Of a stretch of 64,000 bases of DNA, positions 51,404 to 57,857 are shown one piece after another. The DNA lies in the NCBI GenBank assembly GCA_025998875.1, contig AP024675.1, positions 1,523,549 through 1,587,548 of the forward strand. Reading direction: 5' to 3'. This DNA comes from Bacteroidota bacterium (GTDB lineage: Bacteria; Bacteroidota; Rhodothermia; JANXDC01). A program made the position numbers and the translations under genes. Each line of letters begins with the position of its first letter. The stretch's first letter is position 1. Under the pieces are notes generated by a model. The model ran no database searches. It saw nothing but the letters and a program-made list of their open reading frames with translations, and was not told the DNA's origin.

Positions 51404-51443
51404 CCCCCACCTCTTCCTGCTTCGGAACCGTGTCGCAGGAGCA

Positions 51444-51477
51444 AGCCCTGGATCCCTGCCGTCCAGGGCTTCTCTTG
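51444..51477 (+). terminator. terminator after the SIMPL gene
   Basis: Perfect 9-bp stem AGCCCTGGA/TCCAGGGCT with a nine-base loop, then TCTCTTGTT. Confidence 0.7.
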
Positions 51478-51537
51478 TTACCGGATCGAGGAGAGGCTCG
51501 TCTAACGGGTGGCAACAAAGGAGAGGAGACAGCGGCT

Positions 51538-52233
51538 ATGAAAAAGCCCGTGCTCGGAGCACTGCTCATCCTCCTCGGTCTTGCGGGCTGTGACCTGCTC
51601 TCTTCCTCCAGCTCAGAAGGGGGGCTGGATCTGTACCTGACCACGGAACAGCAGACCGGATCTCTACCCAGCCTGTCCGTTGCGGATGCGGGGCAGGATC
51701 TCGGACTAGCCCATGACAGCGCGGGCCACGGACGTCGGTGGGGCCACTTCCCCTATGATTCTATTGCCTCGGCCACGATTGTAGTCCGGGAGGTGAAGGT
51801 CTACGGACGTCAGCAGCGGGGCACGAGCGTCTTTACCGGCAGTCAGCAGATCGAGCTGCTTAACATCAAAAGCGAGCTCGGTGCGCTGCTGGCTCAGGCC
51901 ACCATTGAGCCGGATACGATCCGTGCCCTGGAGCTGCGGGTTGAGCAGGGGCAGATTCAGCTCAAGAACGGACGCACCTTCACGCTCCGCGTGCCCGTTA
52001 CCGAGGGTCGGGTGCTCGTGCTCTTCCATCCCCCTCTTGTGGTCCAGGAGGGCCAGACCATCCAGATCACCCTCGAATTCAACCTGTCGCGCTCTTTTGT
52101 GGCTATTCCGGATCCGAGCACCGGTGGTATCCGGGAATTCCTCTTCAAACCGGTCATTCGTCCGGTCCGAGTCAAGACTGTGGAGGGCGTCGGTCACTTC
52201 GGTCGGGGCAGGATGGGCGGTCACGGAGGATAA
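51538..52233 (+). CDS. DUF4382-like lipoprotein
   Basis: A 231-residue lipoprotein: signal sequence ending LGLAGC, then Ser-rich linker and a beta-sandwich with SATIVVREVKVY, TGSQQIELLNIKS, ALELRVEQGQIQLKNG and VVQEGQTIQITLEFNL, the DUF4382 pattern. The Gly/His-rich tail (GRGRMGGHGG) is unusual. ATG 51538 follows GGAGAGGAG; the frame is open further up. The ECF sigma gene starts eight bases after the stop, so it is the first gene of a five-gene unit that ends at 55431. Confidence 0.75.
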   Translation: MKKPVLGALLILLGLAGCDLLSSSSSEGGLDLYLTTEQQTGSLPSLSVADAGQDLGLAHDSAGHGRRWGHFPYDSIASATIVVREVKVYGRQQRGTSVFTGSQQIELLNIKSELGALLAQATIEPDTIRALELRVEQGQIQLKNGRTFTLRVPVTEGRVLVLFHPPLVVQEGQTIQITLEFNLSRSFVAIPDPSTGGIREFLFKPVIRPVRVKTVEGVGHFGRGRMGGHGG

Positions 52234-52241
52234 GCGCTGGC

Positions 52242-52790
52242 ATGACGGGGGCCGACGAGTACCGGATCATCCGGCAGGTGCAAAACGGCGACCAGGAGGC
52301 TTATCGCCTCCTGGTCGACCGGTATAAGCGCATGGTCTTCCAGGTGGCGCTGCAGTTTGCTCCGGATGCGGATACGGCGCAGGACCTGGCTCAGGAGGCT
52401 TTCCTGCGGGCCTATGAGCATATTGGCCGGTTCCGTTTCGCCTCCAGTTTCGCCACCTGGCTCTATCAGATTGCGCTCAACGTGGGTCGGGACTATGTGC
52501 GTCGCCGTCGTCTGCACCGGAGCGAGCCCCTGGAACGCGCCGAATCCGTACCTGCCGAAACGCCGGATCCGACCCGAGAACTGGAACGCGCCGAGTTCCG
52601 CATGGCCCTGCAGCGGGCCCTGGCCCGGTTGCCGGATACCTACGCCATTCCGTTCCTGATGCGCTACGGAGAAGAGCTTTCCTACGAGGAGATGGCCCTC
52701 CGGCTTCAGGTGGCTCCTGAGGTGCTCAAGGTGCGCGTCTTCCGAGCTCGGCAGAAATTACAGCGTATGCTGACGAGGTGGATGCGATGA
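52242..52790 (+). CDS. ECF RNA polymerase sigma factor
   Basis: A 182-residue ECF sigma. Region 2: YRLLVDRYKRMVFQVALQFAPD, QDLAQEAFLRAYEHIGRFRF and FATWLYQIALNVGRDYVRRR. Region 4: LARLPDTYAIPFLMRYGEELSYEEMALRLQ and VKVRVFRARQKL (KVRVFRARQKLQRM). Its stop overlaps the ATG of the anti-sigma gene, typical of a sigma/anti-sigma pair. Eight bases follow the lipoprotein gene. Confidence 0.94.
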   Translation: MTGADEYRIIRQVQNGDQEAYRLLVDRYKRMVFQVALQFAPDADTAQDLAQEAFLRAYEHIGRFRFASSFATWLYQIALNVGRDYVRRRRLHRSEPLERAESVPAETPDPTRELERAEFRMALQRALARLPDTYAIPFLMRYGEELSYEEMALRLQVAPEVLKVRVFRARQKLQRMLTRWMR

Positions 52791-53434
52791 GATCGGATCG
52801 AATTCATGCGTTTCTGGAGGGCGTGCTCTCGGAATCCGAGGAGGCGCGGCTCTTTGAAGAGCTCAGTCGGGATCCCCACCTGCGGGACCGATTCCGGCGC
52901 GCCGTATGGATGCATCAGGCCCTGCGCATGCGCGCCCCTTTGCCGGAAGATTTCACCGAACGCGTAATGGCCGCCCTGCCCCGCCGGGTCTCTGAGCCCG
53001 GTTGGCGGGCGTGGCTGCTGCGGGGGTGGCGTGCGCTCTGGGTCCCGCGACCCATCTGGTTGCGCCCCCTCTGGGTGGGATCCGGGGTCGCGCTGATGCT
53101 GTTGGCCCTCCTGTTGGGCCTGCCGCGCTCAGGATCAACCCCCGCCGAGGTGCAGGCCGAAGCCCCCACGGTGTTGCATCGGGTTCGCCTGGCTGTTCCC
53201 ATCGGACCGGCCCGGCAGGTGGCCGTGGCGGGCACATTCAACAACTGGTCCACGGAAGCCTGGCTGCTCGAGGATCCCGATGGAGATGGGATCTGGACTG
53301 GCGAGATCCTGCTTCCGCCAGGCCGGTACGAATATATAATCGTGGTCGATGGGGAACACTGGATGCCGGATCCGACGGCCACGATGTTTGTCGAGGACGG
53401 CTTCGGGAGGCGCAATGCGGTGTTGCTCCTGTAG
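52787..53434 (+). CDS. membrane anti-sigma factor with a C-terminal glycogen-binding (CBM48-like) domain
   Basis: A 215-residue protein. Residues 1-65 are an anti-sigma-like helical segment (RIHAFLEGVLSESEEARLFEEL, HQALRMRAPLPEDFTERVMAAL); about 95-113 is one membrane helix (VGSGVALMLLALLLGL); about 130-215 is an AMPK-type/CBM48 domain (VAVAGTFNNWSTEAWLLEDP, DGIWTGEILLPPGRYEYIIVVDG, ending VLLL). With a cytoplasmic N-terminus the CBM would lie in the periplasm, suggesting that a glycan signal could release the sigma factor encoded just before. The start overlaps the sigma stop (ATGA). The sensor role is inferred. Confidence 0.83.
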   Translation: MRSDRIHAFLEGVLSESEEARLFEELSRDPHLRDRFRRAVWMHQALRMRAPLPEDFTERVMAALPRRVSEPGWRAWLLRGWRALWVPRPIWLRPLWVGSGVALMLLALLLGLPRSGSTPAEVQAEAPTVLHRVRLAVPIGPARQVAVAGTFNNWSTEAWLLEDPDGDGIWTGEILLPPGRYEYIIVVDGEHWMPDPTATMFVEDGFGRRNAVLLL

Positions 53435-54614
53435 GTATCGGGGCCTGGGAACCGTCCTGCTCTTCGCTCTGTCCCTCTCAGCACGTGGGCAGAGCCGGCT
53501 GGAAGCGCAGGGGGAGCTATGGGCGGGCGGGGCGAGCAACCGCTTTCTCCTCCCCTATGGGCTTCCGGCGTGGAACCAGACCGGCTCCGGGTATGCCGGG
53601 CTAGCCTTCGCTTTTGCCGGTGTGCGCTCCTGGAATCGGGGGGAACTGCGTCTCGGCTCCGGTCTTACCACCATGCTCTATGCGGGTCGGTGGGAACGGC
53701 TGTGGCGCACGTCGCTCGAGCTGCGAGGCACCTGGAGCCCGGAGCTCGGAGGATGGTTTTCGGCTGGCTATATCTGGAGTTCACAACCCGAACTGGGGCA
53801 TTTTGCCGCTCTGGAGGCCGGTTTACGCTGGATGCCCACCTGGCGCTGGGGGGTGGAGCTGGTTACCGGCTGGGGTTTGTTGCCCACAGTGGCCGAGCCC
53901 CGTTCCAGCCTGCGCTATGGCCTGCGCCTGCTCGGGCAACCGCATCACCGCCTACAGCTCGCTCTGGGCTGGCACGGATGGGGGGCTTTCCGGGCAGAGC
54001 CCACCACGCTGATGGAGCTCACGCTTGGAGCTCCGATCTCCCCAACCCGATTGCGCCTGGATCTGGAGCATCAGCGCTGGCCTGTGGAGCTGGTTCGGCC
54101 TTACTGGCATGGCCGGCGGCTTGTCTGGATGCGCATCCGCAACGTGGACAGCTGGACGAGCGCGCGTCTGGAGCTGGCCCGGGAGGTGTCCGCTTCTTGG
54201 GAGGTCGCCCTGCAGATGGGCCTGGCGCAATACAGGACGCGCACCCAGGCCCGCGCCGAGGCGCTCTTGGGGCTCGCTTTGCGCGCCTCGAGTCTGTTGT
54301 GGCGGCAGATTCCGCAGGGATCGGTGCGGTATGGCACCGCAAATGGCCGGGTATGCGTGGAGGTCTACTACACCGGACCGGGACGGCTGTATCTGGTCGG
54401 GGATTTCAACGGCTGGCAGGCCACAGCCCATCCGATGGAGCCGGATCGCGGTGGCTGGTGGCGTCTGTGCTTGAGCTTGCCCCCCGGGTCCTACGCCTTC
54501 AAGATCCGCTGCGAGGGCGATCCTCGCTACGTATGGCTTCCCCTTCCGAGCAATATAGAACGCATACCCGATGGGTTTGGAGGCGAAAACGGCAGGCTCT
54601 GGGTGGAGGAATGA
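53415..54614 (+). CDS. exported beta-rich (barrel-like) protein with C-terminal glycogen-binding domain
   Basis: A 399-residue protein: signal peptide (GLGTVLLFALSLSARGQ), about 280 residues of alternating strands like an outer-membrane barrel (GELRLGSGLTTMLYAG, HHRLQLALGWHGWGAF), and a C-terminal CBM48-like domain (about 310-399, GRLYLVGDFNGWQATAHPM, WRLCLSLPPGSYAFKIR). GGGAGG at 53405 supports ATG 53415, which overlaps the upstream gene by 20 bases. The pairing of a barrel with a CBM and its position after an anti-sigma with the same CBM is unusual. Outer-membrane location is inferred. Confidence 0.72.
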   Translation: MRCCSCRYRGLGTVLLFALSLSARGQSRLEAQGELWAGGASNRFLLPYGLPAWNQTGSGYAGLAFAFAGVRSWNRGELRLGSGLTTMLYAGRWERLWRTSLELRGTWSPELGGWFSAGYIWSSQPELGHFAALEAGLRWMPTWRWGVELVTGWGLLPTVAEPRSSLRYGLRLLGQPHHRLQLALGWHGWGAFRAEPTTLMELTLGAPISPTRLRLDLEHQRWPVELVRPYWHGRRLVWMRIRNVDSWTSARLELAREVSASWEVALQMGLAQYRTRTQARAEALLGLALRASSLLWRQIPQGSVRYGTANGRVCVEVYYTGPGRLYLVGDFNGWQATAHPMEPDRGGWWRLCLSLPPGSYAFKIRCEGDPRYVWLPLPSNIERIPDGFGGENGRLWVEE

Positions 54615-54618
54615 AGCT

Positions 54619-55431
54619 ATGCGAGGACGTCTGCTCCTGACCCTGTGGCTTTTTCTGGGCCTCGGCCTGAGCGCGCGGGCACAGGAGGGACCGGAGCGCT
54701 GGCGGGAACCGGCCCGTGCAGCCGGAGTGGATCCCGCCCTTGTAGAAATCCTCTGGGCGCGTGCCGCCGCCCAGCGCTGGCCGACCGAAGAGCTGGAACG
54801 ATTGATCCAGACCAGCTTGAGCCTGGAGCGGGAGGGTATGCCCGGGGAACTGCTTCTGCAGAAGGCCCTCGAGGGGATGGCCAAACAGGTGCCCCCGGAG
54901 CAGGTCCTGCGGGTGACCGAACAGCTGGCAGGCACCCTCCGGCGCGCCCACGAGCTACTGCAGGAACGGGTGCCCCGCTGGCGCGCCCGCCTGCCTGAAC
55001 TTGAAGAACGCCCGGTACGGCGGGCCTTCATTGCCGAATTGGCCTCCGGACAGGCCCAAGGGGTGCCCGTGGAGGTTCTGGCCCGCGCTCTGGAAGGCTG
55101 GATGCAGGCTCGTTCGGCTCCGAGCTGGCGTGATATGCTGGCCGCCGTGCGTATCCTGCCCGAGATGCCCGTCCCTCCGGAGCGGTCCGCCGAACTCATC
55201 CAGGCCTTTCTAGAAGCTGGCGGCAAAGGGGCAGAGCTCAACCAGATCCCCGCCGCCCTGCGTATGGCCCAGCAGCAGATGCGCCTGCCGGCGGAGGCGA
55301 TCGCCCGGATGGCCACCCAGCGCATCCGAGGCGGGCTCTCTCCCCGAGAACTGCTGGAGCACATGCGCCGGGGCGCCTTGGAACGCCCCCCTATGCAGGG
55401 CATGGGGCGACCCGGAAAGCCGAGAGGCTAA
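54619..55431 (+). CDS. exported helical protein of unknown function
   Basis: A 270-residue protein with signal peptide [22 protein letters not shown], then almost all helix with regularly spaced conserved-looking blocks ([69 protein letters not shown] in parts). I know no family. It begins four bases after the barrel-CBM gene, and ends the five-gene unit that contains the sigma factor. A partner of the barrel is possible. Confidence 0.7.
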
Positions 55432-55574
55432 TCGGAGCGGGGGATGAAAAAAATTTCCCCCGGACCTTTGCGAATTTTCCCCCTCTGCCGTCTTTTTTCC
55501 TGCCATGGAGCATGCGCAGGCCGGGGAATGTTTTTTGCCCCGCCTTCTATGCGGTTTTTTTGACGGAGACGAAC

Positions 55575-57857
55575 ATGAAGACCCTGCGCATGCGCTTCCG
55601 CTCCTGGCTTCAGGATCTGTCTTTGCGCGTTCGGATCGCCGCTACGGGGTTTGTTCTGCTGATTTTCGTCTTCTTTCTGCTCTGGCTGTACAGGGAAAGC
55701 CGCCGGATCGATGCGACACTGGACTGGGCCGTCCATAGCCAGCAGGTGATGATCCGTGCGGCGGAACTGGATGCGGCCGTTCTCAGCTTGCAGGGCGATG
55801 TGCGCCGCTACCTCCTGACCGGTCTTGCCGAAGATGCTCGCCGCCTGGCCGAGGCTCAAGCCCGTATACAGGAGCACATAGCTGCGTTGATCGAGATGAC
55901 CGCCGATAATCCGGCTCAAGGGGAGCGTCTCCGGCGGATACAGAAGCTCGTTGAGCAGTACGATCAGGAGGTGATCCGGCCCGAAATCGCATTGCGGGAG
56001 CGAATCACCCAGCTGGAAGCCGAGCGGGCCGCCATGGAGCAGCGAGGACAGGACTGGCGCTATTACGCCTATCGTCAACTGGGGCGCCAGCTGCTTCAGG
56101 CCCGCGATAGCCTGCAGAGGTTGGCTATCCAGGTCCGGGGCACAATACAGCCGGTCCGGGCCGAGATGCAGGCTTTCTGGGAAGAAGAAGAGCGTCTGGC
56201 CACCGAGCGCATCGACAACCTCCGGGGGGATCTGCTCTGGATGCGTCGGGTGCTTCTCGGAGGAGGAGGGCTGGCCGTATGCCTCGGGATCTTCCTGCTC
56301 CTGGCTGTGGCCCGCTCCATCGTGCGGCCTCTGGGCAAACTCCAGTATGCCGTAGAAGCGCTCCAGGAGGGCCGCGCAACAGATAGGGAGCTGGACTTGG
56401 AGGGGAGTAACGAACTGGCCAGGCTCGGCCGGGCCTTTCAGCAGATGGCGCGGGCCGTACGGGATGAGATCGCCCGCGCCCGGAGCGTGCAGGAGAACAT
56501 CCCGGTGGCGTTTCTGCTTGTGGATGCGCAGGGCCGGATTCAGTTCATCAACCCGCGCGCACGGGAGCTGGCCGCTCTGCAAGCAGAGCAGGCGCTCGCT
56601 CGCCCTGCCGAAGACCTCTTTGGCCACGATCTGGGGCTTTCGGAGACCCTGCGCACAGGCCAGCCCAACCCGGGCCAGCAGCTCATGCTCCGCACCCATG
56701 CGGGCGAGACCTTCCCGGCTCGTGTGATGAGCGCCCCGGTGCAGGATGCGGAAGGGAATCGGGTAGGGGCTTTTGCTGTGATCACCGACCTGCGGCAGGA
56801 GATCGCGCAACAGAAGGCCTACCTCGAAGAGCAGATTCGCCCCCTGGAGATTGCCCTGCAGGCCATTGCCTCCGGAGATCTGACCTATACGGTGGACCTG
56901 GATCCGGAGAGCGACCTCTATCGGCTCGGACAGACCATCGAGAACATGCGCCAGAGCCTGGCAGAGCTCGTCTCACGGGTCCGCGAGGCGGCTGATTCGG
57001 TGGCCTCCACGGCGGTGGAGATCTCCGCCTCTACAGAGCAGATGAGCGCCGGAGCCCAGGAGCAGTCGGCTCAGGCGCAGGAGGTGGCGGCCGCGGTGGA
57101 AGAGCTCAGCCGTTCGGCGATGGAGAGCGCGCGTCTGGCCAGAGAGACCGCCGAGGCGGGTGAAAAGGCAACCGAAGCCGCCCGGCACGGCCGCACGGTC
57201 GTGGAGGAGGTTGTGCGCGAAATCCACGTGCTTTCGGAAAACATCCGCCAGGCCGCTTCGATTGTCGAGGTGCTGGGTCGATCGGGACAGGAGATCGGCA
57301 AGATCGTGCGCACGATCGATGAGATCGCCGACCAGACGAATCTGCTCGCTCTGAACGCGGCCATTGAGGCCGCACGCGCCGGTGAGCAAGGACGAGGATT
57401 TGCCGTCGTGGCCGATGAGGTGCGCAAGCTGGCCGAACGCACCCAGGAGGCCACACGCGAGATCGCCGAGATGATCGAGCAGGTCCAGCGCCAGACTCTG
57501 GAGGCGGTCAAGGCTATGCAGGCTGGCGCGGATCAGGCCGAAGAGAGCCGCATGCTCAGCGATACCGCCGGTCGCGTGCTGGCAGAGATCGAATCCATCG
57601 TCGAGCAGGCCCGCAGGCGTATCGACGGCATCGTCGCCAGTGTGGAGCAGCACTCCGCCACCACAACGCAGATGGCGCGCAACGTGGAGGGAATCGCGCA
57701 GGTGGCGCGCGAGACGGCCTCCGGGGTGTTGCAGACCGCTCAGGCGGTGCATATGCTCAGTCAGATGGCCGAGTCCCTGCGAGAGGCCGTATCCCGGCTG
57801 CGCACCAACGAGGAGGCCCGTCTGGAGAGCGCGCTCCGGAACGGCCATGGAAACTGA
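55575..57857 (+). CDS. methyl-accepting chemotaxis protein with HAMP and PAS domains
   Basis: A 760-residue receptor: membrane helix about 20-40, extracytoplasmic helical sensor (about 45-215), second helix about 225-243, HAMP, a PAS domain (about 300-400, [28 protein letters not shown] in parts), and the methyl-accepting signalling domain with the hairpin tip [42 protein letters not shown] (given here as a landmark in pieces: [20 protein letters not shown]). ATG 55575 precedes the first helix; the frame is open from 55512. No Che genes lie nearby. Ends with a strong terminator. Confidence 0.94.

Follow-up and report, generated by a model that had tools for sequence, protein, structure and literature searches.

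The SigI/RsgI systems of Clostridium thermocellum are polysaccharide-sensing sigma/anti-sigma systems (PMC4711584, PMC12203970; Kahel-Raifer 2010 and Nataf 2010, as cited in PMC6507058) in which an alternative sigma factor is held by a membrane anti-sigma factor with a carbohydrate-binding module (CBM) in its outer part. ECF52 and ECF53 proteins carry predicted glycoside-hydrolase or carbohydrate-binding domains (reviewed in PMC10766802), on fused sigma/anti-sigma proteins of Actinobacteria. A third arrangement, the cell-surface signaling of FecA/FecR/FecI, brings together an outer-membrane barrel, an inner-membrane anti-sigma factor, and an ECF sigma factor.

Here we analyze a five-gene operon from a Bacteroidota bacterium of the class Rhodothermia, found in a stretch of 64,000 nucleotides (GenBank assembly GCA_025998875.1, contig AP024675.1, positions 1,523,549 to 1,587,548; hereafter the window). 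Like SigI/RsgI, it has a probable membrane anti-sigma factor with an external CBM, but its sigma factor is of the ECF type, its CBM belongs to family 48 (CBM48), a paired outer-membrane CBM protein and a helical protein, E, stand beside it, and its regulon appears to be the module itself, whereas RsgI systems regulate cellulosome genes. Like ECF52/ECF53, it combines ECF signaling with predicted sugar-binding domains, but here the sigma and anti-sigma factors are separate proteins accompanied by CBM48, a predicted porin, and E. As in the Fec systems, barrel, anti-sigma factor, and sigma factor share one operon; the barrel, however, with its predicted 14 strands, is no TonB-dependent receptor bearing an STN domain. 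We rejected membership in SigI/RsgI, since the sigma factor matches ECF profiles only and the RsgI N-terminal domain was not found with Pfam or NCBIfam, and also FecAR-type signaling, since Pfam found no STN, TonB-dependent receptor, or FecR domain. Among described systems, the RsgI anti-sigma factors (PMC4711584, PMC12203970) and the ECF52/53 proteins (PMC10766802) come closest; neither has CBM48, this partner set, or a self-limited regulon. An earlier note on this DNA knew of no description of the set as a system; a literature search pairing CBM48, AMPK1_CBM, glycogen-binding, or isoamylase domains with anti-sigma factors, or DUF4382 with ECF, likewise returned no account of it, the main ECF re-classification paper lying outside that search.

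Gene Content of the Operon

The operon and the signals upstream of it are as follows (window coordinates).

51443 to 51471, plus strand: intrinsic-terminator-like hairpin (11-pair stem, then a T-rich tail) at the end of the upstream SIMPL gene, separating it from the operon
51477 to 51505, plus strand: ECF-type promoter-like element GTTACC-N16-CGTCTAA, 33 to 61 bases upstream of the first gene, with 32 bases between it and the ATG (pattern match)
51538 to 52233, plus strand: gene A, DUF4382 lipoprotein of 231 amino acids (Pfam DUF4382, 2.1e-9; lipobox LAGC)
52242 to 52790, plus strand: gene B, ECF sigma factor of 182 amino acids (Sigma70_r2, 5.2e-18, and Sigma70_r4_2, 5.6e-13, above the Pfam cut-off; TIGR02937, 3.2e-31)
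52787 to 53434, plus strand: gene C, anti-sigma region (residues approximately 1 to 90), membrane helix (approximately 92 to 113), and CBM48 (approximately 134 to 215; AMPK1_CBM)
53415 to 54614, plus strand: gene D, signal peptide, predicted 14-strand porin-like barrel (27 to 297; AlphaFold, Foldseek), and C-terminal CBM48 (approximately 311 to 399; CBM_48)
54619 to 55431, plus strand: gene E, exported, predicted all-helical protein of 270 amino acids from a nameless family (AlphaFold; no Pfam or NCBIfam match)

Reading of the open reading frames bears out the packing given in the earlier note, five genes with spacings of 8, -4, -20, and +4 bases, together with its description of an ECF operon with a membrane anti-sigma factor: B matches ECF profiles, being of ECF size (about 180 amino acids) with sigma regions 2 and 4 only, and C has one helix and a CBM48. 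Because the terminator-like hairpin ends the SIMPL gene, the operon needs a promoter of its own. The DUF4382 match of A scores 38.2 bits against a Pfam cut-off of 25, and the Balneolaceae counterpart scores 123 bits. Proteins D and E both begin with a hydrophobic, signal-like segment. After the operon lies a CHASE3-HAMP-PAS chemoreceptor-type gene (55512 to 57857), which occupies the same place in the sister species (L041, 7561 to 10191).

Two CBM48 Domains and Their Contact Residues

Membrane protein C appears to hold back sigma factor B, which in turn appears to switch on its own operon. The N-terminal anti-sigma domain of C matches RseA_N (0.0085) and zf-HC2 (0.14) below the Pfam cut-offs; it carries a conserved DGELSxxE-type motif, and its gene overlaps that of B. 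A single hydrophobic helix at residues approximately 92 to 113 parts this region from the CBM, where the earlier note had placed one. This topology supports a periplasmic position, on the far side of the membrane, for the CBM48 of C.

The adjacent C-terminal CBM48-like domains that had been noticed in C and D both score above curated Pfam cut-offs: AMPK1_CBM in C (5e-8; 33.5 bits against 26.8) and CBM_48 in D (2.2e-7; 31.5 bits against 22.4). A profile for C matches AMPK beta at 1.4e-9, and the CBM48 is the best conserved portion of C across phyla. Through profile alignments, we mapped onto both domains the glucan-contact residues of AMPK beta, which we take to be W100, K126, W133, L146, and N150. 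Among 27 sequences of C, W100 corresponds to Trp, L146 to Phe, and N150 to Asn in all 27, W133 to Trp in 24, and K126 to Met, Gln, Ser, or Ile; the Lys contact is thus missing throughout and the second Trp in the three Desulfobacterota sequences, leaving four of the five contacts in most sequences and three in those from Desulfobacterota. In D, counted over the 41 sequences with a residue at the position, Trp (W100), Lys or Arg (K126), Trp (W133), Phe or Tyr (L146), and Asn (N150) each occur in 41 of 41. These domains resemble the glycogen-binding module of AMPK beta in profile and in the contact positions kept, but here the CBM48 is predicted to be tethered in the periplasm, to an anti-sigma factor and to a porin.

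A second AMPK1_CBM protein is encoded elsewhere in the genome (G000:C1:6849-7061; locus L002, approximately 1427 to 1722). It is a standalone CBM48 of about 100 amino acids without a signal peptide, its gene is divergent from a GH13 gene, and similar standalone proteins are common in the class, outside the module.

Proteins D and E

AlphaFold predictions for these proteins used 42 to 44 family members. For D the model shows 14 long strands and, after them, a C-terminal beta domain (pLDDT 82). Its best Foldseek matches among solved structures are OmpG, a monomeric 14-strand porin (1.1e-6), and barrels like it, including CymA, a cyclodextrin porin (7.8e-6). No porin family was found in D with Pfam, and identity to the Foldseek porin matches is below 10%. 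The barrel postulated in the earlier note is thereby supported as an outer-membrane protein, a predicted 14-strand, OmpG/CymA-like porin, differing from those porins in its low identity to them and in its additional C-terminal CBM48. Porins of this kind have their termini on the inner side of the membrane; the CBM of D should therefore face the periplasm. In the Desulfobacterales type, D gives way to a lipoprotein of about 108 amino acids that is weakly CBM48-like (Pfam CBM48, 0.018; family profile, 3e-6 to 8e-8).

E is predicted to be all-helical (pLDDT 91.4). It has no family match in Pfam or NCBIfam, a fold search against the PDB gave nothing better than an E-value of 0.2, and it constitutes a new protein family. 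A T2SSF identity was rejected: one Gemmatimonadota member falls just over the Pfam cut-off and the other members do not, as expected of a chance helical match. Variants of E occur in several lineages. Some Balneolales metagenome-assembled genomes carry it tandem-duplicated along with DUF4382 genes (L078, 5526 to 11280; L080, L083, L086); in a Desulfobacterota subtype (L196, L198, L199) a short E of about 195 amino acids lies between sigma factor and CBM anti-sigma factor; and in the Desulfobacterales loci L100 to L102, E ends in a long glycine-rich extension, and downstream of it lies the gene of a second exported, glycine-rich protein.

Distribution of the Gene Set

When the phylum was searched with D and E, the two turned up side by side in seven genomes of the class, and the loci as read encode sigma factor, CBM anti-sigma factor, barrel-CBM protein, and E, all in the same order, although outside the window's genus the module proteins are only about 20 to 40% identical to those of the window. 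DUF4382 homologs are linked in 21 of 25 Rhodothermia loci. In Balneolaceae they follow E; the window's genus and the Salinibacter/Salinivenus type have them upstream. Of the 245 genomes of the class, 60 encode E; among the 55 genomes with a full-length C (at least 150 bits), 53 have it, and the other two are fragmented assemblies.

Matches to E in named genomes fall in Fodinibius, Aliifodinibius, Gracilimonas, Salinivenus, and other Balneolia, and also in Gemmatimonadetes and Desulfobacterales records, nearly all of them with the sigma and CBM anti-sigma genes alongside. Prevalence in phyla was counted by E, with neighborhoods checked on samples. Of 200 Gemmatimonadota genomes sampled, 119 encode E; in the loci inspected the sequence examined includes a CBM anti-sigma gene in 20 of 20 and a sigma gene in 19 of 20. 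For Desulfobacterota the figure is 19 of 198 sampled genomes, with a sigma match in 14 and a CBM gene in all 15 of the loci inspected, again on the sequence examined. Sigma factor, CBM48 anti-sigma factor, and E occur together in 24 to 25 of 25 Rhodothermia, 21 to 22 of 22 Gemmatimonadota, and 18 to 19 of 20 Desulfobacterota loci, most gaps falling at contig ends. Because loci were collected through E, these counts demonstrate that E comes with the sigma/anti-sigma pair; the reverse is shown only for the class. All 25 Rhodothermia loci, and 19 of the 22 from Gemmatimonadota, have a second, outer-membrane-anchored CBM48 beside the anti-sigma factor. The smallest loci (L164, L169, L171, L195) keep sigma factor, anti-sigma CBM, and E, with no second CBM recognized.

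Comparison of these loci shows that the core of ECF sigma factor, single-helix anti-sigma factor ending in CBM48, and E recurs in at least three phyla. The earlier note had made two things tests of its proposal, a CBM48/AMPK1_CBM match of the C-terminal domains and conservation among relatives; the domains match, the gene set is conserved in related genomes, and it is kept as a unit more widely than in the Rhodothermota, reaching Gemmatimonadota and Desulfobacterota.

A Shared Promoter Element

The element GTTACC-N16-CGTCTAA is the only match in the window at two or fewer mismatches. It is the form taken in the window's genus by a bipartite GTAACC-N15-CGTC common to related upstream regions. 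The element matches 26 of 38 such regions, against 0.14 expected, with a pattern fixed after part of these sequences had been viewed. Three further checks depend less on the choice of pattern. The element also lies upstream of detached DUF4382 genes in Balneolaceae. In three whole Balneolaceae genomes (G147, G077, G061), exact non-coding matches mark the sigma operon and DUF4382 genes plus one lipoprotein gene of G061, the remaining matches outside the locus sitting inside coding regions. Of the Desulfobacterota loci added later, the six with the CBM lipoprotein (Desulfobacterales, L186 to L191) each carry TGTAAC(C/T)-N15-CGTT before the sigma gene. Most Gemmatimonadota loci gave no match to the strict pattern, with a like element in three, and the claim of a shared promoter is therefore restricted to Bacteroidota and Desulfobacterales.

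By this comparison, the operon has upstream of it the bipartite element, GTWACY-N15/16-CGTC, of a putatively autoregulated promoter. The simplest reading is that the sigma factor is autoregulated and that its regulon would extend little beyond its own locus. The G061 lipoprotein, which has IPT/Kelch-like repeats, may be a further member; the element lies 66 bases upstream of its gene (L132; G061:C4:1297415-1297439). In two Gemmatimonadetes loci (L097, 2379 to 3434; L098, 2460 to 3545), the first gene of the operon encodes another, helical lipoprotein, and GTTACC-N16-CGTC precedes it.

Proposed Mechanism and Alternatives

The gene set, the domain content, the likely topology, and a promoter pointing to autoregulation and a small regulon are supported by sequence comparison. 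We consider it somewhat better than an even bet that they form a dedicated, self-contained, autoregulated ECF module, with a periplasmic CBM48 sensor on the anti-sigma factor, an outer-membrane CBM48 partner, and E as co-factor. The remaining parts of the scheme, namely which ligand acts, in which direction the response runs, what E does, and whether proteolysis takes part, we infer as follows. At rest, sigma factor B would be bound by the N-terminal domain of C and so kept at the inner membrane. Signaling would begin when the CBM48 of C, in the periplasm, encounters its ligand. The most likely candidate is a soluble oligosaccharide of the glucan type, which the matching CBM48 of porin D, or of the small Desulfobacterales lipoprotein, would bring in or retain; helical E would serve in the periplasm as a co-factor dedicated to the system. 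C would then be inactivated, probably by regulated proteolysis, freeing B to transcribe its own operon, and little else, from the GTAACC-N15-CGTC type promoter. M50 site-2-type proteases are encoded in the genome, but since such proteases are found almost everywhere, this carries little weight. Surface components A, D, and E would thereby be made in larger amounts once B is free, a positive feedback acting on an apparatus for uptake or binding at the cell surface.

The earlier note had proposed periplasmic sensing of an alpha-glucan. The position of the CBM48 beyond the membrane holds up; alpha-glucan sensing is plausible, with the contacts of D for it and those missing from C, and the lack of carbohydrate-active enzymes, against. 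The contact residues speak for D as a binder of alpha-glucan-like chains and, with less certainty, for C as well. In the genomes examined, no glycoside hydrolase or sugar transporter was found in the operon or sharing its promoter, and the host genome has only two GH13 genes, both away from it. Sulfate-reducing Desulfobacterales are unlikely starch users. The absence of sugar enzymes from the locus, the small number of GH13 genes (two, both elsewhere), and the presence of the module in Desulfobacterales argue against a nutrient role.

The signal might instead be the state of the envelope, the CBM48 of C reading the CBM48 of its outer-membrane partner, or E, by protein contact rather than through sugar. 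The near-constant presence of that partner in Rhodothermia and Gemmatimonadota, with a small CBM48-like lipoprotein in its place in Desulfobacterales, agrees with such contact, as do a regulon that appears to be the module itself, without catabolic genes, and the retention of sigma factor, anti-sigma CBM, and E in the smallest loci. Those same loci lack a recognized second CBM, however, and contact alone would not need the surface-exposed sugar contacts that D keeps over 41 sequences; we regard this alternative as possible but rather unlikely, and only tentatively suggest its corollary, that the module works like RseA-type systems to keep an envelope structure at a steady level. It is doubtful, though conceivable, that the two matched CBM48 domains, one on the inner-membrane anti-sigma factor and one on the outer-membrane porin or lipoprotein, pair across the periplasm with E as adaptor. 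Were they to do so, and we offer this as speculation, they would represent a trans-envelope signaling class not described before, with which at least three phyla regulate only the module's own amount.

That the CBM48 fold of C is a mere Ig-like spacer, with E regulating the anti-sigma factor and a signal unrelated to carbohydrate, seems improbable. E is indeed the most tightly linked partner and is found where D is absent, and C has lost the Lys contact and, in Desulfobacterota, the second Trp; against this reading, the CBM48 is better conserved across phyla than the rest of C, and its Trp, Phe, and Asn contacts are invariant. Chance packing of unrelated genes with coincidental CBM48-like motifs, for which we found no supporting point, has practically no probability left, being already refuted by profile scores above curated cut-offs, conservation of the set across phyla, and the common promoter element.

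The dedicated ECF module that we favor would be a compact signaling unit with its own promoter and a new protein family, present in many genomes of Gemmatimonadota, Balneolia/Rhodothermia, and Desulfobacterota. It makes testable whether bacteria outside the Clostridia use sugar-binding anti-sigma factors, and whether a glycogen-binding-type domain may report on the periplasm instead of on stored glycogen.
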